64,000 bases of DNA from Antedon mediterranea (lineage: Eukaryota; Echinodermata; Crinoidea; Comatulida; Antedonidae): the NCBI RefSeq assembly GCF_964355755.1, contig NC_092670.1, forward strand, positions 37,249,795-37,313,794, written 5' to 3'. Under the pieces are notes generated by a model. The model saw only the letters and a list, made by a program, of their open reading frames with translations, had not been told where the DNA came from and made no database searches. Of the stretch, positions 16,003 to 57,420 are shown piece by piece. Each line of letters opens with the position of its first letter. Position 1 is the first letter of the stretch. Both the position numbers and the translations under genes were made by a program.

Positions 16003-16732
16003 AAGACTATTTATTTTATTAGGCTTAGGAATTGTCTGGTAACATTATTTATGTGATACTGTATACTATAGGCTTAATTTAAATTTTAATCATTTTTGTT
16101 TGCTATAGAAACATAAATTTGTTTCGCTGTTGGCTACTTGCTGCAGTACGTGCCATTAATAAGATAAATGTCTACCTGCCGTAGATATTCAGTTGAGAAA
16201 TATTAGTCAGTGTCATCTATTCCTTAACAGTTATCACATGATCCATATTCATTACTACATACATGGGTACAATAGAACTCAAAAGAGAATATGTTTACAC
16301 GTTGTTTACTGGTCAAGGATTTGTACAGCAGTTTTTCTCTTGTTTTTTTTCCAGTTTCCGATAATTGACTATTATAAAAATTTGACCAAATGATTTAATT
16401 GATATTAATTAAGATAACTTAATTGTTGTTCTACTGTATGTAGTAGATAAGAACAGTGAGATGTGATTACGAATATAGTCTGCCATTCTAATACAACAAA
16501 ACAATTTAGGCTTGCAAGTGTGCGATAGTTGACTGCACATTGTTAGATACATTTCAATGAAAATGGTTTAATAACAAGTACATGTCGTACACTAATGCAC
16601 TGTTGTCAAACCTGTTGACCAAACGCTATTATTTTTCTAATTAAAAGATCATGTGATAGATGAATGGTAAGCAGGTGAATCTTTAGCCCTGAGTCTTAAT
16701 CCAATAATGATTTTTTCTTTTTTTTTCTTCAG

Positions 16733-19700
16733 AACATGGGAATGTCGCAGAATAACTCTGGTAGTAGTAACACATTGCCGGATGATGATGTCTTTATGCA
16801 ACAGCTTGAGAGGATAATGGGTTCCGACATGCCATTCAACGAAGAGATGTCTCCTGCCCTACGTCTAGATAACATAGTCAACTCGCAACCAAATGAGGGT
16901 GACTTGCTTAGCTCAATCTTCAATCCTGCCGATCAAACGGGACCACAGGTGACGCAGACACCGAACAATGGCGTGCACAGCAATAATATGGGTTACGGCG
17001 GTGTGCAGCAATCGCAGCAAGGTCATCAGCAGGGTCAACAGCAAATGGGGAGTATGTTGTCTCCGCAAACTAATGTTCACATGATGCAATCAAGATTTCC
17101 AACTTCTCAACCATCACAAGTATGTTACTTTACTTTTAAGCTCTGTCCACACTATCAAACTTTATGTGACAAACAAATGTGATGTGGTCACTACCATATT
17201 TTGGAATATTACTACCATATTTGGACACATCACACTTTTTTGTCGCACTAGTTTGATAGTGTAGACAGAGCTTTACACTTTCAAATAAGGGCCTGTTTCT
17301 ACTGTATGCAAATAACTAGTTAATATTTAATTACCACAATTTACACCTTAAAAATAATAGATGCAATCAACTCCCCCAAATACCAGACTCTGTAAACCAC
17401 AAACTCTTCCTAAACCAGACTTTCTTTAGGTCCAAAAGGTCCAAAATTCTTTTTTACCATTAAAAACACATTCTGAATTTACCAGACTTTCCAGAAAACC
17501 AGACAAATTTGTCCAGCCCAAGGGTGTCCGGTATTGGGAGAGTTGACTCACAGTATAATAATAGTCGATATATTTACAGTTAGAGAACTGTTTGTTCTTC
17601 AATTGTTGCAATCTCATTATTTAAATTAATTTAGATCATGCCCTGTTTATTTGAATGTTCAAATTTCAAAAAAGATAATAATCCACCTGCTGTTTGAAGA
17701 CTTCAAAAGAATCTTCTTTTCTACAAATTGTAAATTTCATAAAAACCACAAAGACAGTCGTGTATCTATAATAGAACAATAAGACTGAGAAGCAAGGAAA
17801 TTACTTAAATCCTTTTTCTCGAATGAAGCACCTGACATGCTGATACTGTTGTGTCACATGTTCTTACTTAGCATACATCGTACATTTTTGCTTACAAAAC
17901 CAGCGTAATGGACAATCAATAGATTGTGTCAGATAAGCCGTTCTTTGCTTGTTACGTTATCTGTCGATATTGAATCTGATTGTTTTGTTCAATCATAATT
18001 GAGTTAGTAGAACTAAAATACACGCAAACTCTTACCAATTTCCAAAGTTTACATTATAAGATTAACAATAAAGAAATAAATTTAATAAATAATAATAATA
18101 CTTGCTTCATTTCCCACATTTTAAAATTTGGCAAAAAAAGATTTATGCAATGTTTTTTTTTAAAAATCAACTGCATGGTACTGGTAGCGCTTAACTACAG
18201 CAAATATGAACTGCCGAAATGTCTTGTTATTGTATCATTACTGTACTTTTGGATAAGTACAATTTTAATGCCCTATATATTTTAAAGTGCTGAGTTCATA
18301 TTGGAACATATCCTGGATTGTCACTTGCCGCTCAATGACCATGTCAGATAACGCGTTAATCAGTTGCCCCGGCTTACGTTACATTCTGAAGCCTACAGTA
18401 GTCGAATCTTGATGAAATTAGCTCTTCGTTCACAAACGATTACCTATGAGTCGGCTTTCTAATTGGCGTGCGCAAACCGAGTCGTGTAGTAATGCCGTGT
18501 TGGCTTGTTAATGGTGGTAATATCAAAAACAAGATCTTAGGAAATCATTAAGAAGTTGTAGATGTGTCACGCATCCTGTTTGTGAAGGACTGGGCTAATT
18601 GCTTTTCAGCCTTGACACTGCCTCCATTTTCCCATCTCATTCCCATCCAACATACAATACTTCCTGCCCTCATCGCTGACACAATACTTTAATACTTTTT
18701 CGGTAATCTTGAGCTGTTTACCACTCTCGTTATATCTGTACTAAATTTGTTTTCTTATTAAAACATTGCTTATTTTATTCACAATTACATTTACAATATT
18801 CATTAGTAGCATATCAAAAGAAGCGGGTGCTTGTCAGTTTAGTAACCATTTATAAACAAAAAAAAACAATTATATCATCAGTTGACTTTGTATGGTGTAT
18901 ACAAACAATTCACACTATCATAAATTTGTACAGTAAAATAATTTAATAGTCATTTTCCTCTGCATTCTGTTTTTTAAACCGCTATGTTGAACCAAACTAA
19001 AATCAAACGTTATTGCACTGGTATCTGCAGTAGCATGTATAGTCATAATCTCAGAGGGATGTTGTAATTTTGTAATTAGCCTACACAGTTACAATTAAAT
19101 CCAGAGGTCCTGGTTTTTAGTTTTTTTTAGTTTTTATTACCTGTTACTACTAATATTATAAGAGTTCTTAAATATTATAATTATATCAAATTATATTCAA
19201 AAGAACTTCTCTATATTTACAGTTTGTTAAAATTAAGACAGTGGAACCGTAATCACGTAGCCATAACATCGGCAGGGGTTCGAGGCTCACTCACTCCATG
19301 GTTCTGGTGGTAGAACGAGTCTTCTCGGATAAGGACTATAAACCGTAGGTCCAGTGTACACAACTTGCTCGTGTGCACTTTAAAGAACCTAGTACATCTT
19401 TCGAGATGAGTAGGGGGTTACCCCGGTGTATTAGTACATCACAGCCACTGATCACCAACTGGGCCCTCTGGGAGATCAGTCTTTGACTGAAGAGGTTACC
19501 CAGTATAAAGATAAAACAAACAAACAAACAAACAATACTAATGTATTATTATTTGTAACAATTTTTTTTCTTCAAAAGATGATGAATATGAATGTAATGC
19601 AACAAAGACCAACCTTGCAAAAACAAATGTCATTACCGGCCACCGGCAACGGAATGCGCGCTGCTGCGGGCGACATGTATAACAGTAAACCGCAAATACG

Positions 19701-22700
19701 ACAAAATCTTCTACGCAAAAAGACCCAACAGCAGCAACAACAACAGCAGCAGCAGCAGCAGCAGCATCAACAACAGCAGCAACAGCAGCAACAACGGGAT
19801 TGGGTGCGGCAGCAGCAACTGATGAGGCAGCAGCAGCAGATGCAAGGAATGACACCGCACCAGCAGCGTCTTGCACAACAACAGAAGTTACAGATGTTGC
19901 ACCACCAACAATCTTATCAGAGGTTTACAGTTCCTCAGGTATAAACACAACCATAAATAGATGATTTTCGATTGGCCTGAGGTTTACTAAATATAAAAAT
20001 AAGTTGATATATTTGTACGGGCATCTATATTCGAGAGGAACATTCGGGATTTAGGAGATACCCTTATTGCACTTTGATGGGTTCCAATGGTGTGTCCCCT
20101 TAATAGAGCTTCCATATTAAATATTTCAACATAAAATAAAGATATAAAACGTAGACTGCATATATCCATACATGTGCAAACTTGTATTATTTTAATTCTA
20201 TTTAAGTGCATGTTAACATGCCTGGTAAGCATGTTTACAATTTTAAACATCTTTAGAATGTGGTGTAGTATAGTTTTTGTTAAGGCACTTATGTCTATTT
20301 TATCTGCTGGTATACACCATCAAATATAAAGCTTTCTTTTACTTTATTATTGACTACTATCTGTAGTTCAGTTGTATTGTAATCTGTTTAGTGACTTGTA
20401 CTGTAGCAAGTGAAACCCTGTTGTGTAGACGTCTTAAGAATAGCTTTGTTTCCCTGTGGCAAAACACTGTTTGTGTACTGAGTAACAATGACCTCAAAGG
20501 TCAACGTACGCCTAGTTGTTTACTATCATGAGTTCAGTGCTTTGCACACCTTTGCAAGTAAATGTGAAACCAGTGCCTTTAACAATTTACGTATTGTAGT
20601 GATTTTATAGTTTGTGATTCCTTTTATTGAATGCTATTTCTCCGTCCCTGTTCCTAATCCATGTTTATTGGTGCCAAGCTCTATATATTATCAGAATCAA
20701 TCCCATAATTTAAATTGTTTATATAAATAATAAACACTTATTGTCCTATGTGTATATAAGTCAAGTATGTATAGAGTCAACTCTGCCAATACCGGACACC
20801 CCATGGGTTGGCCTACAGGAGTAGTCTGGTTTTCTGGAAATTGGGAGAGCTTTTCCAGTTTTCCAAGTCCGGTATTGAGAGAGTTAACCATACTACAGTG
20901 TAGCCAACAACAAATGTTCATTATACTACATTACTAATACAGTAATATTTTAATACACATCTTGGATCTTAATTATAAAACTACCTACAGTTTTCCTTTT
21001 AACATTCAAAATATGTAGTGTGATTTAGTTGGCAGTTTAATTGTGGTCGAGTACCCAAGTTGACATGCCTACATCCATTAATTCTTCTTTTTTTGTTTCA
21101 TTTATTCACTGAAAGTGGTTTAAAAAATTTCTTTTACAAAATCTGACTTGCAAATGTTATTAATGGTGAACATAATAGTTAACATATGAACTTTAATTGA
21201 CTTCAAATTTACTCCATTTTGACAAATTTGACTTCCAAATGTCACAATTATTATATCTTGACTGTCGTTAGTAAACATTTATATTGATATGAAGTTTGTA
21301 GTACTCCACGTATATATGTTCTTAAACGAACTGTTGAGTTTCTTGACATTTCAATCAATATGCTTTGAGTGAGAATGCAGAAAGTCCATGGAAACTGGGA
21401 ATATGAGCGGAATAGTGTGAAATGGGACTGGTGTGAAAGTTAAAAACCATAGCAAGATCACAGCGGGAGGGATTCATAGAAATGTTTAGAAACTCAAAAT
21501 TTCTTTTCAGAATTAATATACGTAGTGTATCGCAAATTTTATATCAACATTTTATTTCGTCATGAAAACCTTCAAACTAAACATTTATGCGTATTTTGTT
21601 TTCGTAGACGGATGGAATGTTTCAAGGAATGGACACTCACAACTTCCCGGAAAAACTCGGAGACATGCTCAGTCCTTCGGCAAGTGCTCCTAATGTTAGC
21701 ATTCAGGTATATCCACATGTTTAGTAGGGGCAATCACTAACCAGAAACTAACCGTCGATGGAGTCGTAAGATGTCTTATAACCATACTAACAAAACTGAC
21801 CATAAACAATCGTGATCCGTTCCAATAAAGTTTATCACAAATAGCTTGATTTCACAAGGAACATCATTGCACAATGCATGATGGGAAGGGTTTGGGAGCA
21901 AACGTCACAACGTGTATGTACAAATAACAAATCACGTACGTACGTGTCGTGACGTTTCCTCACAAACTCTTCCCATCATTCATCGCGCACAATATTTGCG
22001 ATAAACCTTATGAATGGATCACATCTAAAATAAATGCCCTGAGAAGCATGTACACATTACATGTATACACATCTTCACATTATACATCTGCATACATAAA
22101 CATACTGTACTGTTCGTCCGCATAAACAATCTCTCACTATCACGTGTCATAAGGTTTATTTATAATTTAGTAATAAATTAAAACATAAAAGAATTTCACA
22201 AACAAAACACAAATTTTTCTACAATTTTGAATAAGTACCAGATCAACTTGATTTTAACCCGACCAAGTGACCTTTTGAAAAAGTTCTATCTACACTATCA
22301 AACTAGTGTGACGAAAAGTGTGATGAGCCCATGGTAGTGATATGCCCAAATATGGTAGTGATATGACATCATCATGTCCATATATGGGCACATCACATTT
22401 TTGTCACAATTTGATAGTGTAGACAGAGCTTTACACAAACATGTCAAACATTTTTAAGCATTGTTGAGGAGCTATATTGGCAATTTGGTTGACGGGCACA
22501 ATTAAGTTGATCTGGGAACCTATGGACAAAAAGAATGTTATTTGTAACAAGTGAGTTTATTGTGTTACAGAAATCTGGATTTGGTAGTCCAGCAATGCCA
22601 GGAAGACCAATGTCCGGAGCCAATCAAATGAATCAAATGATTCCAGGTGGACAGATGGGTGGACAGATGGGTGTTAGAGGTCAAGCAGGCATGACCAATC

Positions 22701-24891
22701 AAATGTTTGCGCAAAATAACCGAACGGGAGAATATGGATTACCGCCATTTAACCAGATGATGAATTCAAACCAATATGGAGGCAATATGGGACCTAATCC
22801 AAATTCATTCCCGTTCCAGGATCCAATGCAAGTCAATATGCCTTACGGAAATTCTATGAACAATCGCATGCAAGGAAACCCTAATATGATGGGTGGCATG
22901 CAGAATCCACAACATGCTGGGATGCAAAATCCAGCTGGAATGCAGAATCCTGCAGGAATGCCTAATGCTGGCAGTATGCCAAACTCTAATATGCAAACTC
23001 CAGGTGGAATGCCTAATTCAGGAGGAATGACTCCAGGTGGGATGCAGACTCCAGGTGGAATACAAACGCCTGGTGGTATGGCTACACCAGGAGGTATCCA
23101 AACACAAGGTGGAATGCAACAGCCGGGTGGAAGCATGCAATCCGGGGTGCCCATGGCCCCGACGTCGGGTTTGAACCATAACATTCCACCTTCTACTATG
23201 GGACAAAATCCAGGTGTGAATCCTGGAATATCAGGAATGGCAAATGCCAGTATGGCATCAAATCAATACATGAACACAAACTCGAACTTTTCTAACTTCC
23301 GCGGAAACCCGAACTCAATGGTCCCACAAAATCAAAATGCTATGCGTGTACAAAGTCAGATGGGTGGTGCTGGAGGTATGGGTGGTGCCGCTAGTATGGG
23401 CGGTGCCGCTGGTATGGGCGGTGCCGCTGGTATGGGTGGTGCAATGAATCAAATGCGTTGGAATCAGCAGGCAGGAGGTCAAATTCAGGCAAACATGTTC
23501 TCTGGTCCAATGTCTTCACAGCAGCCATCGTCTGCAGATATGTATGGTGGCATGAATGCAGGAGTTATGAATAGAATGCACCCTCGAAGGAACAGTACCG
23601 ACTCTCTAAACCCTCAGGTACATTTTACATTTAAACTAGTCTCTTTTAGTGCCATTTGTCTTCTACTAAAGTGTTACAATTTTACAGTTAAGTAGCCATG
23701 ACATTACTACTGATACTGGTTCAGCTAACTTTCTACATACATCGGGTATCCATTGACATAAAATTGGCATTTAGATTAATTTACATTGCTTGACTCTAAA
23801 TCAAGTGTTTAACTTTATATTGTACATCAAACTAACTTGTTGCATTTAAAACGCAATTAATATCGCAAGCCCTAGAAAATAATCAATTGCTTTATTTTTA
23901 CAGATGACGCAAGTAGGGGGTGCCCTTATGAATTCTATGAATCAGAATAAGAATCCAAATGCGTCAAACTTTAATATGGGAGGTACACCGTCAACACCGA
24001 TGGATGATGATTTAAATATGACTATCAACTTTCTACAGCAAGGTATGTTTAATTAGCATAAATAAAATACATACATTTTCTTGATTTACCTTAATAGAAA
24101 TAAAGCAGTTTACACTATAATTTATATACAAGACAAATTACTGAAAAAATCAGTGGATGGATCTCAATAGAGGTATAAAATAATATAAGCAAACAGCTTA
24201 ATCAAAACAATATAGTAAAACAGCCAGAAAATTTGCACTATAATTTATATACAAATATTTTTGTCACAGAAATTCAACAGACTGGAAATGTAAAACAGGG
24301 CAGTACAGCTGCTGCCGCCCCTCCTGGTAATGAGCCGGTAGCGGTCGCTCTTGAAAGTCAGTGCCGCGAGGAAGCAAAACAACGATATTACAATTTTTAT
24401 AATATGGCAGATGCAGGGCAGGCACCGGATGCAAAAACGAGAGTTACAAATTTATTTAAAAATCAATTACAGGGAATACGACCTGAGAGTCAATTGCAAA
24501 GCCTTCAGAGTTCTCATCAGTCTTCTATTGAAAGACAGGTAAGGTAGATTTGGGCACATCACACTTTTTTTTTCAAACTATTTTGATAGTGTAGACAGAC
24601 CTTAAAGATATATTGTCCCTTACAATTTTTTTTTTTTTTTTTCAAACTTTGTTTTGGATATGCCATTTTAATGTCACATGATTTGACCAAAAAGTGGATC
24701 AACATTTTTTATCTTCATTTTTCATGTTTTTGGGGGACAAATACATCTTTCTAAGCAACTATTGTATCCATATTTTTGTCTAATTAATATATTTTATTTT
24801 TCTTTTATTTTTTTAGCAATCACAAAATGATTCACATGAATCCACAGGGAATAACAGTTTACTACAGAAATTATTACAAGAAACAGGCTAA
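16733..24891 (+). CDS. Probable p160/SRC nuclear receptor coactivator (NCOA-like), C-terminal seven exons
   Basis: Exons 16733-17119, 19579-19938, 21608-21706, 22571-23617, 23904-24042, 24270-24538, 24817-24891; all have AG/GT borders and phases join into 791 codons ending TAA. The first exon has a strong pyrimidine tract and AG, so it is internal and the bHLH-PAS and receptor-box exons should lie upstream; I did not find them. Residues about 17-55 (VFMQQLERIMGSD ... RLDNIVNSQ) align by eye with the AD1/CBP-binding helices of p160 proteins (LLDQL ... ALGIPELVNQ). Next come a poly-Gln block, long Met/Gly/Asn/Gln-rich repeats (TPGGMQTPGG; MGGAAGMGGA), and a final SLLQKLLQETG, an LXXLL motif like the one ending SRC-1a. 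p160 proteins bridge ligand-bound nuclear receptors to CBP/p300 in the nucleus. Mastermind-like protein is the main alternative, because both are Gln/Met-rich, but the CID-like helices and terminal LXXLL favour p160. Confidence 0.65.
17137..17275. mobile_element. Family-1 MITE 17 bp past a splice donor
   Basis: Intact ends TAAGCTCTGTCCACACTATC / GATAGTGTAGACAGAGCTTTA. It begins 17 bp after the donor of coactivator exon 16733-17119. Confidence 0.9.
17366..17549. mobile_element. MITE with TIR like GTCAACTCTCCCAATACCGG, copy A
   Basis: The right end GTGTCCGGTATTGGGAGAGT+TGACT pairs with the left ATCAACTCCCCCAAATACCAGA. It shares ends and ACCAGAC-rich interior with the copy at 20774-20888. Confidence 0.6.
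19233..19534 (+). mobile_element. tRNA-derived SINE, 5' truncated, ends 44 bp before an exon
   Basis: It is about 95% alike by eye to the copy at 38468-38790, but starts at TTAAGACAGTGG, so it lacks most of the A box. The B box GGGTTCGAGGC is kept. The tail is (AAAC)n, ending at 19534, directly in front of the acceptor at 19577-19578 of the coactivator gene. Confidence 0.85.
20774..20888. mobile_element. MITE with TIR like GTCAACTCTCCCAATACCGG, copy B
   Basis: Ends are GAGTCAACTCTGCCAATACC and GTCCGGTATTGAGAGAGTTA, inverted copies. 115 bp, in an intron of the coactivator. Confidence 0.6.
21812..22022. mobile_element. 211-bp palindromic MITE in a coactivator intron
   Basis: The left arm GTGATCCGTTCCAATAAAGT...GATGGGAAGGGTTTG...AAACGTCAC is mirrored by GTGACGTTTCCTCACAAACT...GGATCAC. 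ATC sits directly outside each end and may be the target duplication. Confidence 0.7.
22281..22432. mobile_element. Family-1 MITE in a coactivator intron
   Basis: Ends AAGTTCTATCTACACTATCA / TTGATAGTGTAGACAGAGCTT, with two internal GGTAGTGATATG units. Confidence 0.9.
24118..24236. repeat. Dispersed repeat, second copy
   Basis: GACAAATTACTGAAAAAATC, GATGGATCTCAATAGAGGTA and AAAACAGCCAGAAAATTTGC match 3125-3260. It fills most of the intron between exons 23904-24042 and 24270-24538. Confidence 0.55.
24548..24604. mobile_element. Family-1 MITE, right half only, 9 bp past a splice donor
   Basis: TTTGGGCACATCACACTTTT ... TTTTGATAGTGTAGACAGAC. It starts 9 bp after the donor of exon 24270-24538. 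Confidence 0.8.
24602..24751. mobile_element. Family-2 MITE, internally deleted, in last coactivator intron
   Basis: TTAAAGATATATTGTCCC ... GCCATTTTAATGTCACATGA ... GGGGGACAAATACATCTTT. It abuts the family-1 half copy at 24548-24604. Confidence 0.65.
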
Positions 24892-30670: not shown

Positions 30671-33600
30671 TCAGTCGCAGGTTATAAACTTCATGAATTC
30701 AGCATGATCAATCAATCCATCTTTGTTGATATCCAGTTCGGAAACAAGCTGGAAAAAAATGGTTAAAAATTGTTAAAATCGGATTTATTTACTTAAAAAG
30801 CTAAATGAATACAGTATGAAAAACTAATGTTGCAGATATTTTGGTAATAATTAGTATTATTTATTAGTAATAATAAAATGTCTCCTGCCAACTTGCAGGG
30901 GTCATATTCATTTACCGTTAAATGTGGTATTCATTTAGATAAGTCTTTACTTAGCCTAAAGGCCAATTTACACAGACGAGCGGTAACAGTAACCTGAAAA
31001 CCGCATAGCTTGTCCCATGTAGAATCTGTATCTATCCTCAGCGGAAATCACTCGTCCACTCCACGTTTTGTGTAAATAACATAGATTTTATATTTTTATT
31101 ACTGTTACCACTCATCTGTGTATATTCAAATTGTTTCTAAAATTAGTATAAACTTACAGCATTCATAAGGTCATCGTCAATTGGTAGATTTTGTCGATGG
31201 CATATCCTCTTGACCTCGTTGATGTCAATCTTGCCAGACCGATCTCTGTCGTACTGCAGGAACGCATGCGTCAACGAGTTGAAGTTTGTATAATTGTGTT
31301 TCTTTAGCTGTGATTTAACTTCTCCTAACAAATATGCCACATCACCAGGACTATAGAGAAACAACAATATAACATAATTTAATATAATATACAAATATTG
31401 CCTGCGTAGACAAATATGAATACCTTTACCTTTATCAGTGCAATTTAATATAATATACTTTTTTAGTAGACAGTATATGGACGAGTTATATACTGTATTT
31501 ATGTCTTGATATTGAATAAGTAAAGTGAATCTTCTCACCTTCTTTTAACTTTCATAGGGGCAGCCTTCATTGACTTTGGTGCTTGCTTATTGTCACGTTT
31601 CGTAGCAAGGGAATGAATAGTTTTTTGAACACCCGGAAAGTCCTCCTGGTGCGATTCTAAATACGAACGTACGTAATCGTCGGCATCCGTAATGATGAAC
31701 CTATGGTTAAAGACCTGAACGGTTGCTCCGATATACAGATCTTGAGGTTCGTAAAATTCTGGTCTGTCTGGCTGAGAACCTGGTTTAGTTACTCGCGTTC
31801 TTTCAAGGAATTTGCCGCTTATGATGCCGGAGTTGCGAACTGGAGGTTCAAAGATGGTCATCATGTCATCGGCTAGACGGTAGCTGATTATGAAGCGCCG
31901 TCCTTTGTCTTCTGGTTTGACGGAATCCTGTAAATAAAAAACAAATAGATTTCATTAAATAAGTCAATGAGAGATCTCAGTGGTACAAGTTCACTACAGT
32001 TAACTGTAGCTTTTCAAACCTATTAGTGCGCATTACCAAATTCTATCACCGCAAACTTATCTATAATAAACATGTTAACCAAATTCATTTTTGCGAATTT
32101 CCTAATAATGTGTTTTCTTTTGGATACATTAGATGTAAAAGATGGTACTGACAATAAAAACAACTCACCATTACAGCTTCAAACCTAAGCACTTTGTGGT
32201 CGTTTTCCAGCATCTTGATGAAATCCTTTTTCGGAGGTTGAGGTACCAGTGACAGACATGACCGCAAGGAATCCTCCAAAGATCCAAAGCCATTGTAAGG
32301 TGGTAAGTCCTACAATAAAATATGAGTTAACATTTTTACCTCTCCGGGCTACAGTTCTCAAAAATATTTTTATACAGAGTATTATTATTTTAGGACATCA
32401 CCTCATAATAAATGTTTTATTATGGTGAATGAATAAACTTTTAATTTTGTTTTTTTTTATAATAACTTTTCAGATTATTAATATCAGTTTTTTTCAATTT
32501 CTGGGTACTCACCAGATATGGTAACATCATCAGCTTTAACTACCTATCGTATGTTTTTTAAGTTACTGTCAATTTAAATTTATAAAAAAATATTATTTAC
32601 CATCTGCGGTACATCACGAGCACGCCCTTTGACCTCGACTGGTGTGAAATCCCTGACACCATACTTCTTGAACAAGTAGTCTTTAGTGAACTCATCACAG
32701 TCATAGATGAGGAAGGGACGGTTGAATACGTAGATAGTTTGGCCGATTTTAAAGTCACTCGGTTTGTACCATTCTTTGATTTCATGCTCTGAGAATTCCA
32801 TGACAACAGATGGAAAAGATGCTGGAGAGAAATGACAGATCTATATGATAATCATGTAAAAATAATTTTTTATGGTAGAAATAGTATAATTAGATTTAGG
32901 AACAGTCTTTAAAGCTTCAGAAAGGGTGTATCTACCTTCAATATTGTCTCTATCCTTTGGCAACTTTTGTCTGGAGAGTAAGACAGGAAATGGATCACGA
33001 CCATCGTTAGGTTCATGGACCTCGCGTACCTCTACTGTGTCATCAACTAAGTAATAATGAATGATGTTTGGTCGCATTTCACCAAACATACTCCCTCTGT
33101 CGTCCCAAACACAGTAGAAACGTAATACCTTTAATGACAACAATGGAAAAAATTGTGATTATAACCAGGAAAATGACAGCAGTAATAATTTGATTCTTCT
33201 AAACACGATTCTTTCGCACTACTTTGTTAATTTTTGGCTTTGTTTGTTACATACCTTCCTGTCAAGTTCAATAAACTGTCGAAGTTTGTCAAAGTTTGAA
33301 GGTGTTTTGAATGTTCTGAGGGCAGCAGACTCTTTTCTTGATTCATTGTAGGGATCACTTGGCACAGGAGTAGGAGGGTTTAACTCAATACCTTCGCTTG
33401 CCATAAATTCCTGTAAGAAAATGTATTTTATAATGACTACCTTCTGAATTTCTTTTGAAAATTAGCATAGAAAAGATCAGACATGGCACTTCTATTCTTA
33501 TGTCCATACTTTTGTATTATGGCTTAATATAGCTTACAGCTCTGTCTACACTATCAAACTAGTTGTAAAAAAAAAGTATGATGTACCCAAATATGGTAGT

Positions 33601-43223: not shown

Positions 43224-46200
43224 AAGTGCCACATCCCATTCCTCTCCCCTAACAACCCGGTACTTTGCGGCAGATCCTGTAGTCAGTCTCCCCTTGTTTT
43301 CAATAATGATTACAAAGGGTGCTCACGCTCGTATGTATAATTTGTTTGCAGATGAAGTAAAAAGTACTTTAGGTGAAGGAACGTTTGGGAAAGTTGTAGA
43401 ATGCAAAGACACTCAAAGGTACGATAATGAGTCTTAACTTAAGCTCTGTCTACACTATCAAACAAAGCGTGATGTGCCCAAATATGGTGGTAGTGATATG
43501 ACATCATGTCCATATGTGCACATCACATTTTTTGTCACATAAAGTTTGATAGTGTAGACAGAGCTTTATATGAATATACACTTACTTTTACATGTAAAAT
43601 TTCACTACCCTACATATGCCCAAAGCTAACCAGATAACAGTCAAGTATTCCTTGATTTAAATATATTGAATTACTGATTAGATCAAACTTAAATTGACAT
43701 TAGATACTTATATTATCAGTTAAAAATTTAAATGATGCCAAAATCCTATACTACTGTAGTCATATTACTAGTTTCAGTAACTGAAAATTGTACAGTATGT
43801 CTTTCTCTATCTAGCATCAATTATGATAGCAGGCACTTTAAGATGTACAGTATTGTCTCCCACATGCATGAAAAATAAAGATTAATAAAATCAGACTTTG
43901 AATAGATTATTTTGTAGCTTTAATAAAATTAATTATTTCTGTAGAAAAGAAAACTGGAAAAAATTATTGTTTTTACTTATAAAATTACAAAATAAATGGT
44001 TAAATTCAACCAAAAACTCATTGGCTGGCAGCCAATTTGACTATTTTTTGCTTTAAATTACATTTTTTTAGGTAAATACTTTTTTTTTTCGATGCAATTT
44101 TTGGTCAAAGTGGATAACTATTTGGTGACATTAAAATGATAGCAATGCCATTTTAATGGCCGCATATTTAACAATAAATGTTATAAGAATTAATTTTTCA
44201 GGGGACAATACATCTTTAATTCAGAAAGTCAATTCTCATTAAAAAAATTATCTGATTGTGTTTAGAGGGGAGAGAATAGCTTTGAAGATAATTAAGAACA
44301 TTGACAAATACAGAGAAGCAGCCAAGTTGGAGATCAATGTACTAGAAAAATTAAATGAAAGAGATCCAGCTGGCAAACAGTAAGTCACTTATTTTATGAA
44401 GATAATATTCCACTCTAAATTATTTTTAATATTGTATGATTATATACAGTAATGTGCAGTACTAGTTATGGCCAGATTGCATGTTATGTTTTAATACAGA
44501 CTCGTAAACATATTAAAAAAACACCAATATATAAAATACATAAAAAGATGAAGAAAAAAAATGTTTTGGCATTTTTATTTAGTAGCTATTGAAAAACAAC
44601 AGTTTTTTTTATTGGTACATTAATTTAAATTAACAATCTACTTTAATACAACTTGTATATATATCTATACAAATAAAGGATGTTCCAAAAGTATAGGTTA
44701 TTATTTCGTCAATTTATACTACAGTATAGTGATTCTTCCAGTTGCTTCCATACTGTTTAAAGTAGTACACACATTTTAATATTAATACTGGTAATAATGG
44801 TATCTCTTACAACAGCATATGGTAAAATAATTTGATACTAACACTGCAATTTATCTTGTTTGTTGTATTACTACAAGATCGTGAGAGCAAGTTGATTTTT
44901 AATGTAATTCTCATTTGAAATCATATGACTTCTACTTGACCACAGCTGTTTTTTATTAACTTACTGTTATTGTTACTATTGTATAATTGATATTATTGCC
45001 ATCAATGTTCAGAAATTTCAATTTAATATTGGTACAAAAATAACAAAACTCATCACCACTACCCTATATGTATTCATTTATTACTACAGTGAGTACATAT
45101 CATTTACAGTAGGCTGCGTCTGTCATTAGCATGTATGGAAAGAATAAATCTTTTAATAGTGTTTAAAGGCAAGCTTTCATTAGACTAATAAAGTTCCATT
45201 TTGCCTGCATTTCCAATTCGTATGCAGTTGGCATTTACTGTACATTGAATAAATTCAGAATTAATGCTACAGGTACTAAAAGTAAATGACGCCTAGATAG
45301 CTAATCATTCATTTCTAAGGATTTGTATGTTTATTCCCAATGTTTTAAAAAATGAAGTAAGAACACCACAATAACCAGAGTTGTTTTTGCAAAAGAAAAA
45401 AAAATCACACACATTGAAATATAATTTTAAGTTTATTTTGTTGCGTCCCAAGTAAAATGGGCTTCATAGTAATTAATGAAAACATTTCTTCTGGTTTCGA
45501 TTCGTATAATAATATAAGTAGTTCTTTGATAGTAAACCAAAAAACATTGGTTCATAGTAATTATTGTTAATCTACTATTAAACAATTGTCTTGATTTAAT
45601 TAGTTTACTCAGCTGCTTACTCCAACGGATATGACTTGCACATACACATCCAAAGCTCTGTCTACATTATCAAACTTGTTTGACAAAAAAAGTGTGATGT
45701 ACCAAACTATGGTAGTGATATGCTTAAATATGGTAGTGATATGCCCAAATATAGTAGTGATATGCCCAAATATAGTAGTGATATGCCCAAATATAGTAGT
45801 GCTATGACATCATCATGTCCATATATGGGCACATCATATTTTAAAGTTTGATAGTGTAGACATTTTTTCATTAGTCTTAAGCAGAATGTACTATTAATTC
45901 TATGTAATCCTGAATTGCCTTTTCTGTACCCTCATTAATTATGAATCACTGACTGTGGTATGCAATCGAGTCACTTGAGTGTAAGCAATGACCTGCTTCA
46001 TTATGGATGCTAACAAGTGCTAACCTGACAGTTTGTGTTCTCTTCTTCTAGCCTATGTGTGAAGATGATTGATTGGTTTGACTATCATGGCCATATGTGC
46101 CTTGCATTTGAAATGCTTGGAAAAAGTATATTTGATTTTCTGGTAAGTCATACATTGTATAATCAATTCATTTTGTTTTCATTCTGTGAAATAGACTCTC

Positions 46201-49200
46201 CTAATACCAGAATAGTTACTGTATATGACAGCATGGGCCAGTCCATGTGTTTCTTGTGCCTGAATATGACAGGGGTGGGCCAGTCCATGTGTTTCTTGTG
46301 CCTGCATATGACAGGGGTGGGCCAGTCCATGGGTTTCTTGTGCCTGTATATGACAGGGGTGGGCCAGTCCATGTGTTTCTTGTGCCTGAATATGACAGGG
46401 GTGGACCAGTCCATGTTGTTCTTGTGCCTGCATATGACAGGGGTGGGCCAGTCCATGTGTTTCTTGTGCCTGCATATAACGGCGTGGGCCAGTTCATGTG
46501 TTTCTTGTGCCTGCATATTACAGGGGTGGGCCAGTCCATGGGTTTCTTGTGCCTGCATATAACGGCGTGGGCCAGTCCATGGGTTTCTTGTGCCTGCATA
46601 TGACAGGGGTGGGTCAGTCCATGGGTTTCTTGTGCCTGCATATAACGGCGTAGGCCAGTCCTTGGTTTTCTTCTGCCTGCATATGACTGTGTGGCGCCGT
46701 AGCTTCTTATGTGACTGTATACAAAAATAGCTTTTATATTTGCACCTTAATAAAAAGTAATACACTATAGTACAATCATTTTGGCTTTTGTCTCTTGTGT
46801 GTTATGTTTATATCTTTGATATACATACTACTTATGTATCTTCATATATTATTCAAAAGGTTGAAATTTAATGTTTTTTAATTGACTTCACAGAAAGATA
46901 ATAATTATTCGCCTTATCCAATGGACCAAATATGCCATATATCCTATCAACTATCCTATGCAGTGAAATGTAAGTTGTTTTTTTTTTGTTTTTTAAATTA
47001 CAGTATCTTAGCATTCCCTCAGGGAATTGAAAAAAGCAACATATACAGTAGAGCCATTAAAGAGAGAGACATTAGGCTGATGAATACGTTTGCTTAATTA
47101 AACATCGTACAAATAAGTTGCTTATGGCGTGAATTTGTCTTATAAAGTTGTCTTTCGATAACTTAGGTGTATTTTACATTTTTATATCTGTTTGTGTCTA
47201 TTTACCTACCTGTTAAGACATGTCTACAATCCAATTAAATTCACAATATGGACACACCTCAAAATGGTACATATACAAATCTCCCAGGCATGACATCGTC
47301 CTCATACATTTTAATATCTGTTCGGTTTCAGTGAATTATAGATCAGAATATTTATTTTTATTGCTCTATATTTTCACAGTACAGTTGGCCAACAAAATTT
47401 AATGATGCATGAATATATCTTGAAACAGTTACTTCCTGTTTCCGTGTTTATTAGCTAACCAATAAGTGACTTTTTTAAAAGTGATGATTTGTATTTGTAG
47501 ATACAGTAGAACATTGGGACTTCCCTACTAAGTGTAAAACTAAAGCTGTAGATTCATTTTAGCAGTAAATCGCAAATAACAGGCTAGATATCAAATGCCA
47601 TTTTGGAGATAAATGAAGAAGAAGCATTAAAGCAAATATAACAATTAACATAGACTAGTTAAGTTTCTTATCAAAAGACAGCAATGAATCTTAAGCTCTG
47701 TCTACACTCCCAAACTAGTTTGACAAAAAAGTGTGATGTGCCCAAATATGGTAGTGATATGCTTAAATATGGTAGGGTATGACATTATCATGTCCATATA
47801 TGTGCAATCACATTATTTTGTCACATAAAGTTTGATAGTGTTAGTTAAAGCATCTCATAGCCTATTTCACCCACTGCTGTGTGAAGGCCTCCTCCAGTTC
47901 TGTTTCTTGCCAATCTTTCCCAAGTTGCCATTCCCATGTACGTTGTTATGTCGTCACGCCATCTTTTTTTTTTGCCGTCCTCTTCTTCTTCTCCCTGTCC
48001 TCGGCTACCATTCATTCAATCTCTTCGTCCATCTGTTGTCTCTTCTGGCTATGTGTCCTGCCCATGTCCATTTCAATTCTTTGATCTTTACCATGATGTC
48101 TTTGACTTTTGTTCTTTTCCGTATCTCACTATGCTTTACTCTGTCTCGTATTGATAGATTTACCATTTTTCTTTCCATCTCTTTCGTTGTTGCCCATGTC
48201 ATCATGATCATTTAATGCTCCCCGTCTTCCATAGCAAATTGGTATCTGTTTTCATGTTGGTTAGCTCTGACGTCAAACTCATCTGGTATAATTTCTTATT
48301 TTATTTTTTCAGTTATGCATGATATGAAATTAACTCATACTGACTTGAAGCCTGAAAATGTTTTATTTGTGAATTCGGATTACAGGATGAACAGACTAAA
48401 GGTAAGAATTTGTCCTTCTTTGCGTGTCATATAATGTATATTTCTTGGTATTGTTTATTTCAGTTAAGCTCTGTCTACACTATCAAACTTTATGTGACAA
48501 AAAAATGTCATGTGCCCATACATGAACATGATGACCTATTTGGGCCTAGGTAATGCTAGCATATTTGGGCACATCACATTTTGTTTGGCAAACTAGTTTG
48601 ATAGTGAAGACAGAGCTTTTGTTATTTTTTCAACATTTGTTTTTTCAATTGAACAGTATTCAGAGGACAAGGTGGTAAAGATGGCAGATATTAAGCTAAT
48701 TGATTTTGGTTCAGCGACCTTTGACCATGAACATCACAGTAGCATTGTATCAACCAGACATTACAGGGCATTGGAAGTTATACTTGGTAAGCCTTTTTTT
48801 TTTAATTATCAAACAAACCCAAGCAAAGTAACATCATTGGTCAATGTTATTTGATACCTTGTTAATTTGATTAATATAATCTTTTTTGATCAGTATATCA
48901 TGGACTCTTCTAATTAGCAAATTCAAAGTGTCCCAAATCCCAAATTACATGTAAAATGCATTCTGGAAGACCTAACTGGAAACATTTTAGATCTACTCTA
49001 TGGTGCTTTGTTTTTAGTTGTTGGACGCTATAGTGAATAGATAGACAGGCCACCTAAACAATGTCTTCCACCAACAAATGCACGCCCAATGGACACCCAT
49101 CCTCCATTGTGTGCATTTTGTCCTTTAAATTAAATTAATATATTTTTTTACTTTTCAGAGCTTGGTTGGGCGCAGCCATGTGATGTATGGAGTATCGGCT

Positions 49201-49819
49201 GTATCATGTTTGAGCTGTATACAGGTTTTACTCTCTTCCAGGTATTTAAAAAATTCCTATTTCCAGTGTCCAGTGTTGAAGTGCTTATAAAAACGTTTTA
49301 ATTATGCCATTTTTCTAAAAAAAAATTTCAGACGCACGATAATAGGGAACATCTATCTATGATGGAAGTGATTCTTGGGCCAATGCCTGCATGGATGATA
49401 AAGAAAACAAGGTAAAAATAACTTAAATGTATGCTAAGCATCACAGAATAGAGCTTGCTTCTCGCGCTATAATTGGTGATTAAATTAAGCATAAATTAGG
49501 AAGAAGCCAATCTGGAATAACTAATATTTTTCTTGTTTTTAGAAAAACTAAGTATTTCTACCATGGAAGAGTGGACTGGGATGAGAATAGTTCTTCAGGA
49601 CGTTACGTAAAGGACAACTGTAAACCGCTGAACCGTTACAGAACACAAGATGACGTCGACCACATCAACTTCTTTGACCTGCTGGAAAAAATGTTAACGT
49701 ACGACCCCGAGAAAAGAATCACTCTGGATGAGGCGATCCGACATCCTTACTTTGAGGCTTTACCCCCATGTCAGCGTCTACACTCCAACAACCGAGACAC
49801 ACATAGCTTGAGTAGGTGA
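40940..49819 (+). CDS. CLK: CLK family dual-specificity (LAMMER) kinase, complete coding region
   Basis: Twelve coding exons: 40940-41082, 41351-41543, 42670-42763, 43352-43418, 44266-44379, 46052-46142, 46894-46969, 48313-48401, 48657-48786, 49159-49241, 49332-49411, 49543-49819. Phases join into 478 aa (human CLK1/2 484-499). Residues 1-130 form an Arg/Ser/His-rich domain like the RS domain that targets CLKs to nuclear speckles. Kinase landmarks: LGEGTFGKV 150-158, ATP lysine in IALKIIK (K173), HTDLKPEN (catalytic D270), [13 protein letters not shown] (D305) and LAMMER-type [12 protein letters not shown] at 366-377. CLKs phosphorylate SR proteins and regulate alternative splicing. Oddities: the APE motif reads ALE (L328), and the LAMMER signature is LSMMEV. 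Exon 42670-42763 has weak splice sites; its start is the only AG in phase with the previous exon. Introns hold several MITEs, a 42-bp minisatellite and a LINE scrap. Confidence 0.95.
41140..41255. mobile_element. CLK: Family-1 MITE in the first coding intron of CLK
   Basis: ATGCCCATATATAGAAGTAA ... ATGTCCATATATGGGCATAT, right end GTTTGATAGTGT-ACTAGACAGAGCTTTA. The left end is eroded. It begins about 57 bp after the donor. Confidence 0.8.
42670..42763 (+). other. CLK: CLK exon with weak splice sites, likely regulated cassette exon
   Basis: This 94-nt exon encodes the conserved linker [19 protein letters not shown] just before the kinase domain. The acceptor (ATCGTAG) lacks a good pyrimidine tract and the donor is GTACAT, both weak. 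In-frame stops occur just upstream at 42616 and 42667, fixing the 5' limit. Skipping would join a phase-0 exon to ATGAAGTAA, an immediate stop, leaving the RS domain only. Vertebrate CLK genes regulate themselves by skipping the equivalent exon 4; that parallel is inference. Confidence 0.6.
43189..43222. repeat. (GT)n microsatellite
   Basis: About 16 GT repeats in a CLK intron, 130 bp before exon 43352. Confidence 0.95.
43440..43568. mobile_element. Family-1 MITE 21 bp past a CLK splice donor
   Basis: Both ends intact (TAAGCTCTGTCTACACTATC / GATAGTGTAGACAGAGCTTTA). It follows the exon with the glycine-rich loop, 43352-43418. Confidence 0.9.
43838..44219. mobile_element. Family-2 MITE, full copy (about 380 bp), in CLK intron
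   Basis: Ends TTTAAGATGTACAGTATTGTCTC / GGGGACAATACATCTTTAA. The interior has AATAAAGATTAATAAAATCA, TTAAATTCAACCAAAAACTC and GCCATTTTAATGGC. The right end lies 46 bp before exon 44266. Confidence 0.75.
45652..45863. mobile_element. Family-1 MITE, expanded internal repeat
   Basis: Between the ends a 24-bp unit, TAGTGATATGCCCAAATA plus TAG, is repeated about five times, making this copy the longest. The right end stops at GTGTAGACA. Confidence 0.9.
46230..46692. repeat. 41/42-bp minisatellite in a CLK intron
   Basis: About 11 units of GGGCCAGTCCATGTGTTTCT+TGTGCCTGCATATGACAGGGGT. A shorter variant ends ATAACGGCGT. Starts 88 bp after the exon 46052-46142 donor. All long ORFs here come from the 42-bp period. 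Confidence 0.9.
47691..47843. mobile_element. Family-1 MITE in a CLK intron
   Basis: TTAAGCTCTGTCTACACTCC ... AAAGTTTGATAGTGTTAG; right end truncated beside the LINE fragment. Confidence 0.85.
47862..48215 (-). mobile_element. Degenerate RTE-type LINE reverse transcriptase C-terminus
   Basis: Read on the minus strand this gives [20 protein letters not shown], then [20 protein letters not shown], a stop in frame, [19 protein letters not shown], and after a frameshift [11 protein letters not shown] with a stop. This is the typical C-terminal end of endonuclease/reverse-transcriptase LINE ORFs (RTE-like). The internal stop and shift mean it is dead. It lies in a CLK intron, next to a MITE. Confidence 0.75.
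48464..48619. mobile_element. Family-1 MITE in a 255-bp CLK intron
   Basis: Intact ends. It fills most of the intron between exons 48313-48401 and 48657-48786, leaving 62 bp after the donor and 37 bp before the acceptor. Confidence 0.9.
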
Positions 49820-52276: not shown

Positions 52277-55200
52277 TTAAATATCAATGATGACATGTAT
52301 ATCATTGGTCGTTCGATCAGTATGAATTTGCATATTCGAATAAGTTATTGCCTTCACTTCTGTTCCCTGAAAGAATTGTAAAAGAGTTTGTGACAGAGCT
52401 GCAGGCAGAAACTATGGAAAAACCTAGTTGTAAAAGTTTAGGTCTCCGACTAAAATAATAATAAGTAGTACAGTATCATTGTATAGTGACGATTTCAGTA
52501 CATTCTAAGGGCTGCCATTGTTGCATATTATACTAGCCAACTTAATGGATTGGCTAGTAAAATAATGGTGGACACCATAACAACGATAAAGTATTATAGT
52601 GAAGTCTCCCATTGTTTTCTTGACCTTAATATGACCTTATCGCTTAGTCCATTATATTTAGAGGGTTTTTAAATACCTACCTGAGGGTGTTTGCTAAGGT
52701 CAAAGGTTTCACCAAACCTGAAAAGATAAAAATATCAAATGCTGTAATCAAATCCGTCCTTGCTCAGCAGGTTTTCCATTCTTATCAATGAAAGTGATAT
52801 ATCTAACAATAACTGGTTCAAATAAACTGGTATTGTTTTGTGGCTATTTGAAACATTTAAGTCATAATTATACCCTATTGCTTGTATCTTGAAATTTGTC
52901 TTGTCAAACTCCACTATTTGTACTTTCTGCAAAAACAAAATGTAAATAAAACGATTTAAGTATGTATATTCTCAGAATTTTCCCTGTTTATACAGTACAG
53001 TACTTGATTACAGCGCTTAAAGACCCCTTCCCTGCAATTTTGGACGTTTTTTGGAAAATAATACATATATATCACTTTAAAAACATTAAACCATGTCATT
53101 CCTTGTCTTAAATGTACGTTTTATGGTAAATTATGATAAAAAGTGAGAAACAATGCACTACCTAAGTAGCTCGCGGCGATCGACCTCTCGTGGACGGTCT
53201 CAGGCCTAGCCTAGCTAGGCTTAGTTTTGTAGGCCTAGCTGGTAAACATCGGTAACGTACGAACATCGTACGCTAGCTATATACCTAGCCTGCTAGCCTG
53301 ACGTTGTATAGTTGCTGCATTAATTGTCTTTCTATTTTTGCCAGACTCCGTTGATACAAATTGGGGAAAACCCGGTATTTTCGCTGAAAAGTTAGGAGTC
53401 TTCCATTTGTTTTGGCTTCACGATCGATCGAAAAGTGGGCGAATTACAGGTGAAAAACAACAATATCAATCCGCGCGCAATGCATTTTGGGATTTATAGC
53501 GGGCCGCTATAATTATTAAAATCGATTTATTTTTCACATTTTTAACCGTTTAAAGACGAAAAAAGTTATCGCAATAGGACCATATAGTATTATTTTTACA
53601 TTAAATATAGTTTGTGATCTTAAATTAGATCTAAAAAACGTAGGGAATGGGGCTTTAAGTTTCTCTGTTTGCCAATGTATATATTCACTCCATCCATGAG
53701 ATGTGTTGTATTATATATCCCTTAAATTATTTTAATTGAAATGGATTACTTACCCTTGGTATAAAAAAAGGATCGGCGGAGAATAAGAACAAAAACTCAT
53801 CCAGAAAATGGAAAAGCAAAGATAACAAATCATACCCTGTAAAAGAATTCAATTATTAATAAAGCTCTGTCTACACTATCAAATGTATATACTGATATAA
53901 TGTATTGACACTACCATATATGGACATGATGATGTCATATCACTACCATATTTTGGCATGTCACAACCGTATTTGGGCACATCACACTTTTTTTTGTCAA
54001 ACTAGTTTGATAGTGTAGACTTAAGAAACAATTTCTATTTTTATAAATAATTAAAATATAAATATACAGTGTAATGTCCAATTATCCATTACTGTTTTCA
54101 TCTTATTAGATCTCGTCAGTGCAGCTACAGTTTAAAAATATTAAATGCAATATATATTATACAATTGTATTTATAATGTTTAGGTTTAACAAGACTTAAA
54201 GATCTACTTATTTGGCTGTGTCTTTGATGCATCATGTCTGTCAATAATTTGAGAGAATTGTACCTTCTGCCTCAATGGACTTGCTCTGCTTAACCTCTAC
54301 TGTATCAATCTCCGTCATGTATCCGAACATTGCCATTGCAACCTAAAACAAATCTTAACATTTGTTACAATGAACTGTGATTATATTTGTATAGGACATT
54401 ATACCAAAGTATTAGTTTCCAGGAATGTTTTCCGCTTGTCTGTAACTGTGTGCTTTCCATAGTTAGGGGTCTGGTCTACCATAAGTGTAAATTGCATGTA
54501 GATGTACAGTATTGGGTTCGAATCCCATGAGTCACTTCTTTTTACTTTATAGTGAGAGAGATTATTTAGAGGGTTAGGTTAAGTTATATTTAGGAAGCAG
54601 TTCGATATTTCTAATAAAATGTTCATTATACCAATGTGAAAAGATTTACCTGTTCAAAGGATTCTTCAAGTGAATCTCCCCCTATATGTTATGGGTTAAG
54701 TTTATAACTTTACATACTTTTTCATTATCTAATTTTTGCTCAGCAATTTTCAGGCATTTAGTATTTTATTTTTAAATTTTATATCGCACATTTATCAGAT
54801 GAAAGAGAGCTTTCCATTTGCGATGACCTAGGAATATAGTTCAGTACATTGCATACATATAGATTCATTGACTACTAGGTCTAAGCAACGACCAGGTCAT
54901 CGCAAATCGATAGCCCCCTCTATTGATTTTCTCAAATATAGAACACTGTTAAACCATGGAGGTATTATTTTATACCTCCATGGTTAAACCCTGTTTCCAT
55001 AGCTGTAATCCAATGAAGTGTCTGCTTTAAAAAGGATACACGAGTGTAGTCTGTAAGAAAATTAAAATTAGGTTGATCAAAAACAATAAAATACTAGGCG
55101 GCATAACTAGGCCTGTTTTTATTTATTAATCTAGGCCTAATGGCGCTAGTTAGTAGTACTGTAGTGTCGGTAGGCTATTTGTTCTGCTGTGGGCAGCCAT

Positions 55201-55859
55201 GACAAAATGAGTTTTTTTGTTTACTTACTGGACATCTGCTGTGTGATCTAAATCTATAAACAAAAAATGTTAAAAGTGTTAATTTTGTATGATTCTGTAA
55301 CTTAATTAATTTAAATAATGAATGATTCCGATTCAGTAATCTTCAGCTGCGGCTGGTTTGTTTCGCTACATTGTCTGAAACAGCCTATCTATGACCTAGG
55401 CTACCCCATTTATATTTTATCGGCTTTGATTTTTATAAGCAGACTTTTTTTCCCAAACCTTGTCTTCAGAGAGACTATGAGTTTTATGACTCTATGAATA
55501 TGATAAATCGGTTATGCAATAAAATATTTGTAAACAATCAAATCTGTTGGCCGTTTGGAGAATTCACGAAAAAACTAAGTTTTCAAAAAATAATTGCATA
55601 TAAAATTACATTTTTTGTAATTTATTTTATATATTATATCAACATTGGCAATATCGATACAATTATGTTTATTTGGGCCGAATCGTCTCACCTGCCCGAA
55701 TCGTCCCGGCTCGGGCGGCGCGCGGCCTAGTAAAGAGAACACAAAAGGGAGGGCTAGGCCTAGGCTAACATACTCACATTCATATTTGCGTTTTGGATAT
55801 TGTTCCGATTTTTCTAGTTTATTCACATTTGAACCCAGTGGTTCTGCAACGCCTGCCAT
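52277..55859 (-). CDS. ZBTB8OS: Archease (tRNA ligase activator), complete, nine exons with an 11-nt microexon
   Basis: Exons in transcript order: 55778-55859, 55229-55253, 55040-55050, 54650-54681, 54264-54342, 53754-53836, 52874-52926, 52681-52717, 52277-52366. GT/AG borders and phases give 163 aa (human 167). Diagnostic segments: YEYLDHTADVQLHSWGDSLE (residues 26-45), MAMFGYMTEIDTVEV, LLFHFLDEFLFLFSADPFFI, GFGETFDLSKHPQGTEVKAI and the C-terminal VIIDI. Archease promotes guanylylation and turnover of the RtcB/HSPC117 RNA ligase with DDX1, in tRNA splicing and XBP1 mRNA joining. The DHTAD aspartates (D30, D34) and terminal IDI belong to its conserved metal-site region. The start at 55859 gives a compact N-terminus; an in-frame ATG 13 codons upstream (55898) is an alternative. 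The gene converges on CLK and diverges from the SLC16-like gene. Confidence 0.95.
53016..53660. mobile_element. 645-bp element with short inverted ends in an archease intron
   Basis: The left end CTTAAAGACCCCTTCCCTGC and right end GTAGGGAATGGGGCTTTAAG are inverted repeats with a few mismatches. The interior is more GC-rich (CTCGCGGCGATCGACCTCTC and several TAGGCCTA-like motifs) than flanking DNA. No ORF. It looks like a non-autonomous DNA transposon. Confidence 0.6.
53859..54024. mobile_element. Family-1 MITE near an archease acceptor
   Basis: TAAAGCTCTGTCTACACTAT ... CTAGTTTGATAGTGTAGACTTA. It lies about 20 bp upstream (transcript sense) of the acceptor of exon 53754-53836. Confidence 0.9.
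54450..54540 (+). repeat. tRNA-like sequence, possible SINE head or tRNA pseudogene
   Basis: ATTGGGTTCGAATCCCAT forms a good T-arm, with an A-box-like AGTTAGGGGTCTGGTCTA about 55 bp upstream. The anticodon arm and acceptor stem do not fold convincingly. Lies in an archease intron. Confidence 0.3.
54795..54925. repeat. Short foldback repeat in an archease intron
   Basis: CTTTCCATTTGCGATGACCT and CAGGTCATCGCAAATCGATAG are inverted around about 60 bp. Confidence 0.55.
54948..54991. repeat. Hairpin AACCATGGAGGTAT
   Basis: GTTAAACCATGGAGGTATTA / TATACCTCCATGGTTAAAC form an almost perfect 18-bp stem. A related hairpin is at 57381-57420. Confidence 0.8.
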
Positions 55860-57380: not shown

Positions 57381-57420
57381 TAGTTAACCCATGGAGCTAT
57401 TTAATAGCTCCATGGTTAAC
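57381..57420. repeat. Hairpin AACCCATGGAGCTAT
   Basis: GTTAACCCATGGAGCTATT / AATAGCTCCATGGTTAAC; same core and layout as 54948-54991, suggesting a small repeat family. Confidence 0.8.

Follow-up and report, generated by a model that had tools for sequence, protein, structure and literature searches.

An 11-nt microexon predicted between a U2-type and a probable U12-type intron in the archease gene of the crinoid Antedon mediterranea

Two small exons of the archease gene of Antedon mediterranea are separated by a gap of 547 nt, and the reading frame is not kept when they are directly joined. The question raised by this locus is whether a coding piece of only 11 nt, found within the gap, is a genuine exon, and how such an exon could be spliced. 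The locus is part of a stretch of 64,000 nt, hereafter the window (G+C 33%), from an assembly of 354 Mb in 18 contigs. Exon assembly from the window sequence identifies a complete archease gene on the minus strand, at 55859-52277. The gene has nine coding exons, measuring in order 82, 25, 11, 32, 79, 83, 53, 37 and 90 nt, which once joined give a 492-nt coding sequence for 163 amino acids without internal stops. All introns start with GT and end with AG. Exons and relevant splice signals are the following.

55778-55859, minus strand: coding exon 1, 82 nt, phase 1 at its end; from ATG to GAAT/GTGAGT
55229-55253, minus strand: exon 2, 25 nt; codes for YLDHTADVQ
55051-55228, minus strand: U2-type intron 5' of the microexon, 178 nt; CCA/GTAAGT ... 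TTTTCTTACAG
55040-55050, minus strand: microexon, 11 nt, ACTACACTCGT; rest of Q36, L37, H38, S39 and first base of W40
54682-55039, minus strand: probable U12-type GT-AG intron, 358 nt, phase 1; donor 9/9, branch-like ACTTAACC, no polypyrimidine tract
55029-55039, minus strand: probable U12-type 5' splice site GTATCCTTTTT, pairing with the 5' end of U11
54693-54702, minus strand: candidate U12-type branch site AAACTTAACC, 7/10 to TTCCTTRACY; ends approximate by a few bases on either side
54650-54681, minus strand: exon 4, 32 nt; starts with the GG of W40
54264-54342, minus strand: exon 5, 79 nt
53754-53836, minus strand: exon 6, 83 nt
52874-52926, minus strand: exon 7, 53 nt
52681-52717, minus strand: exon 8, 37 nt
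52277-52366, minus strand: exon 9, 90 nt including the stop codon

The translated gene matches the Pfam Archease profile (PF01951) over the whole domain (1-136 of 136, E 2.3e-43), and human archease in PDB with an E of 3e-60, 95 of the 143 aligned residues (66%) being identical. Residue D34, within HTADVQL, is aligned to human D51, a metal-binding aspartate. According to mutagenesis primers human D51 sits in HTADVQL, and RTCB guanylylation is lost when it is replaced by alanine (PMC10944509). When the genome was searched with the spliced coding sequence as DNA query, seven of the nine exons were found, all hits falling within this locus, and archease is a single copy gene. The same search detected no processed archease copy, a natural stand-in for a cDNA. 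A Pfam search for archease over the genome gave no match, as expected because the exons are so small. No relatives were found among viral contigs in a scan, and no COX1 gene was detected in the assembly.

Other coding stretches are found in the window. A C-terminal protein kinase exon (49484-49819, plus strand; Pfam Pkinase E 1e-4), CLK-like by eye, adjoins archease on the opposite strand. Kinases of the CLK family phosphorylate SR splicing factors. Exons encoding a DM10 domain and an EF-hand (31143-31951, minus strand) point to an EFHC-like ciliary protein. Long Gln/Met/Gly-rich coding stretches at 16700-24547 (plus strand) resemble by eye a p160 nuclear receptor coactivator, and no Pfam match was obtained with the pieces tested. 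A long tandem repeat at 46160-46800 is open in several frames on both strands, and is not likely to be coding.

An earlier note, made from the sequence alone, had placed an 11-nt archease exon at 55040-55050, and its coordinates, strand, sequence and flanks are correct. On the minus strand 55050-55040 reads A CTA CAC TCG T, with TTACAG before it and GTATCC after it. The piece is internal, has an acceptor and a donor at its borders, and falls in the size range of microexons (up to 30 nt). Junctions 55229/55050 and 55040/54681, which give the predicted join GATGTCCA-ACTACACTCGT-GGGGAGATT, put archease back in frame, as the note had anticipated, and leave the nine-exon coding sequence open. The claim that the piece supplies L-H-S and part of W, in agreement with the family, is also borne out, as QLHSW is found where human archease has QLHAW, with no gap around the microexon. 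The note maintained in addition that no other piece would fit. All AG...GT, AG...GC and AG...AT pieces in the gap that measure 1-120 nt, restore the frame and are free of stops have been enumerated; 16 have a GT donor, and QLHSW is obtained from 55050-55040 only. When the gap was shuffled preserving dinucleotides, an 11-nt piece scoring equally well against QLHAW was found once in 20,000 shuffles, and when all frame-restoring lengths up to 62 nt were admitted, none of 3,000 shuffles had an equal-scoring piece. Other microexon donors, such as CTC/GTGTAT (which gives 9 nt), were discarded by inspection of the sequence, as the frame with exon 4 is lost. Frame, homology, splice signals and chance controls all speak for the predicted microexon.

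Direct joining of exon 2 to exon 4 results in a frameshift, with a stop four codons on. Retention of the upstream intron ends translation directly after Q36; with the downstream intron retained, 18 further residues follow S39 and then a stop. In all these instances the frame ends within about 20 codons from Q36. Since skipping of the microexon and retention of its neighbouring introns all lead to stops, the microexon is most likely constitutive. It is presumably used in vivo.

The donor of the microexon, CGT/GTATCC, fits the U2 consensus at four of nine positions only. In contrast, the first nine bases of the downstream intron, GTATCCTTT, match the U12-type consensus RTATCCTTT at all nine, versus 3-6 of nine for the seven other archease donors. 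GTATCC plausibly looks odd because it is the start of a U12-type 5' splice site. The intron ends with AAACTTAACCCATAACATATAG; AACCCATAACATATAG precedes exon 4, and there is no polypyrimidine tract. The branch-like ACTTAACC is located 13-14 nt before the AG. The candidate branch site fits TTCCTTRACY at seven of ten positions, the match being at CTTAACC, with AAA replacing TTC at the first three. A score of 7/10 is equalled at one other archease acceptor, but the CTTAAC core is found at U12 spacing only here. In the window GTATCCTTT occurs at two of 7260 GT positions, the other being at 2807 on the plus strand and assigned to no gene, and CTTAAC is found 8-20 nt before AG at 20 of 6388 AGs. If the two signals are independent, their chance co-occurrence is about 1e-6 per intron. 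The intron is in phase 1, which fits the order reported for minor introns, 1 > 2 > 0 (PMC10639083).

Components of the minor spliceosome are encoded in the genome. Genes for U12 (125.7 bits), U11 (two genes, 88.6 and 82.9 bits), U4atac (97.6 bits) and U6atac (136.6 bits) snRNAs all score above the Rfam thresholds. There are also matches to PDCD7 (U11-59K) and to zinc fingers of the U11-48K type; the latter domain occurs in other proteins too. Both U11 genes start with AAAAAGGG, and eight continuous pairs can be formed with the donor UCCUUUUU. The donor pairs at -6.7 kcal/mol with the 5' end of U11, versus -2.1 kcal/mol with the 5'-end sequence of U1, the latter taken from general knowledge and not from this genome. 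The AAAGGAGAG segment of U6atac is intact and pairs with the donor as well, and U12 retains GAGTAAGGAAAAT for pairing with the branch site. The two U11 genes (G000:C8:13519935 and C5:11057853) are distinct: their 5' ends and 3' halves are conserved, but stem regions have diverged. A second U6atac match (G000:C7:8523554-8523655) is weak (33.7 bits) and shortened, and is probably a pseudogene. The U12 donor, the branch-like site, the lack of a polypyrimidine tract and the minor-spliceosome genes together make it most likely that the microexon sits between a U2-type and a U12-type intron.

The downstream intron hosts two repeated structures. A palindromic element, TTAACCATGGAG.TAT...AT..CTCCATGGTTAA, is found on the minus strand within the intron (54942-54995) and upstream of the gene (57383-57420). 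Near-matches in the window number four, versus 0.13 expected, and the sequence has the look of a small mobile element or hairpin. A second inverted repeat (54804-54919) has 26-nt arms, 85% complementary and 64 nt apart. A DNA search of the genome found this repeat nowhere else, and insertion may thus have enlarged the intron.

A microexon spliced at both sides by the major spliceosome, with GTATCC as a weak U2-type donor, is one alternative to consider. GT-AG ends are in keeping with it, and the same gene has another poor U2-type donor, AGG/GTATAA (4/9). We nonetheless regard it as unlikely, given the perfect U12 donor, CTTAAC at U12 distance, the missing polypyrimidine tract and the joint chance of about 1e-6. 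Exons 2 and 4 might otherwise be joined through a different small exon, or an unannotated one, in the gap, where 15 more frame-restoring, stop-free AG...GT pieces are available. None of these provides the conserved LH[AS]W, and all would disturb the best conserved part of the protein by residue changes, insertions or deletions, which makes this solution highly improbable.

Hardly more credible is the hypothesis that the microexon is a relic within a gene copy that has decayed or is not expressed, as archease is single copy in the genome, its nine exons are open, splice sites are intact, and identity to the human protein is 66%. Finally, the microexon could belong to a cassette under regulation. 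Together with exon 2 it makes 36 nt, and the two can be skipped jointly in frame, to yield a 151-aa protein lacking YLDHTADVQLHS with the metal ligand D34, plausibly an inactive isoform. The splice sites of exon 2 are however of the strong U2 type, and the 30 nt before the microexon lack the TGC motif; regulation of this sort appears quite unlikely. The reading favoured with high confidence is that archease has a real, constitutively required microexon with a U2-type acceptor and a U12-type donor, the flanking introns being probably removed in sequence. Exon, frame, splice signals, snRNA complementarity and minor-spliceosome genes are the observations on which it is based.

The remark in the earlier note that exons this short are hard for the spliceosome is incomplete, as two spliceosomes appear to be involved, a U12-type donor and a U12-like branch site being found downstream. 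At small exons splicing complexes cannot occupy both borders together, and the flanking introns are thought to compete (PMC8831610). Because 11 nt are too short for two spliceosomes at once, we infer that the two introns are most likely removed one after the other. For the 178-nt U2 intron, which is short and has a GTAAGT donor and a T-rich acceptor, intron definition would apply, and the major spliceosome would excise it first, fusing the microexon with exon 2 into a 36-nt exon. The U11/U12 di-snRNP would then span the 358-nt intron from its U12 donor to the CTTAAC branch site, and this intron would be removed second. Alternatively, U11 snRNP at the U12 donor might assist U2AF at the acceptor 11 nt upstream. 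Contacts between U11-59K (PDCD7) and U2AF, which have been reported across the exon between major and minor spliceosomes (PMC8034651), may help to fix this acceptor. U2-type acceptors in SNRNP48 and RNPC3 are described as activated by U11 bound downstream (PMC8329584). As at the USSE, U11 sitting on a U12-type donor just 3' of a U2-type acceptor could promote use of the latter. USSE is, in contrast, a tandem U12 donor, itself unspliced, whereas archease has a single donor and the intron must be eliminated.

The downstream intron resembles known U12-type GT-AG introns for the RTATCCTTT donor, the CTTAAC core 13-14 nt from the AG, the lack of a polypyrimidine tract, the phase 1, and for being the lone minor intron among the major introns of its gene. 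Minor introns are found between major introns in hundreds of genes. The archease intron differs in that the upstream exon measures just 11 nt, an extreme case for bridging from one spliceosome to the other. SRRM4-dependent neural microexons are also very short, carry a TGC motif just upstream, and have a frame-preserving length. The 11 nt of archease are in contrast not a multiple of three, skipping destroys the frame, and no TGC motif of the SRRM4 type is found in the 30 nt that lead up to the acceptor. The SRRM4 neural programme is ruled out by length, missing motif and frame loss.

Microexons of up to 15 nt, in frame or not, have been documented; those of plants, coding and constitutive, range from 1 to 15 nt, and include a 1-nt exon in APC11 (PMC8831610). 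Plant microexons are, as the one of archease, internal, up to 15 nt long, not multiples of three, located in conserved parts of proteins, and prone to be missed in annotation (PMC8831610). The difference is that one of the introns flanking the archease microexon is of the probable U12 type; the term 'U12' was not found by text search in the plant study (PMC8831610). Among the papers searched, none associated archease or its human gene ZBTB8OS with minor introns, U12 or microexons. Targeted searches in the main text of a few papers on minor introns and microexons, all outside subscription journals, detected no microexon bordered by a U12 intron, which is a weak negative. Archease thus combines features of known kinds, a microexon and a minor intron, in an unusual way.

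The prediction of the earlier note that annotation pipelines would probably miss the exon agrees with the published experience in plants (PMC8831610). It is doubly apt, because a published microexon finder filters candidates of at least 3 nt by a U2-type splice-site matrix (PMC7821500). For the same reason microexons bordered by U12 introns are likely under-reported. Finders scoring donors in this manner have a blind spot, and would probably drop the archease microexon.

We advance as a tentative idea, doubtful at present, that an exon of 11 nt with a U2 acceptor on one side and a U12 donor on the other is old and conserved in animal archease genes, so that the RTCB cofactor needs both spliceosomes, and minor-spliceosome activity sets the capacity of tRNA and XBP1 splicing. 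Were this arrangement conserved, the tRNA ligase RTCB would have a cofactor whose expression depends on the minor spliceosome. An exon of 11 nt leaves almost no space for contacts between spliceosomes across it. The archease gene would therefore test, in a compact natural setting, whether such contacts persist at minimal distance, or splicing proceeds stepwise.
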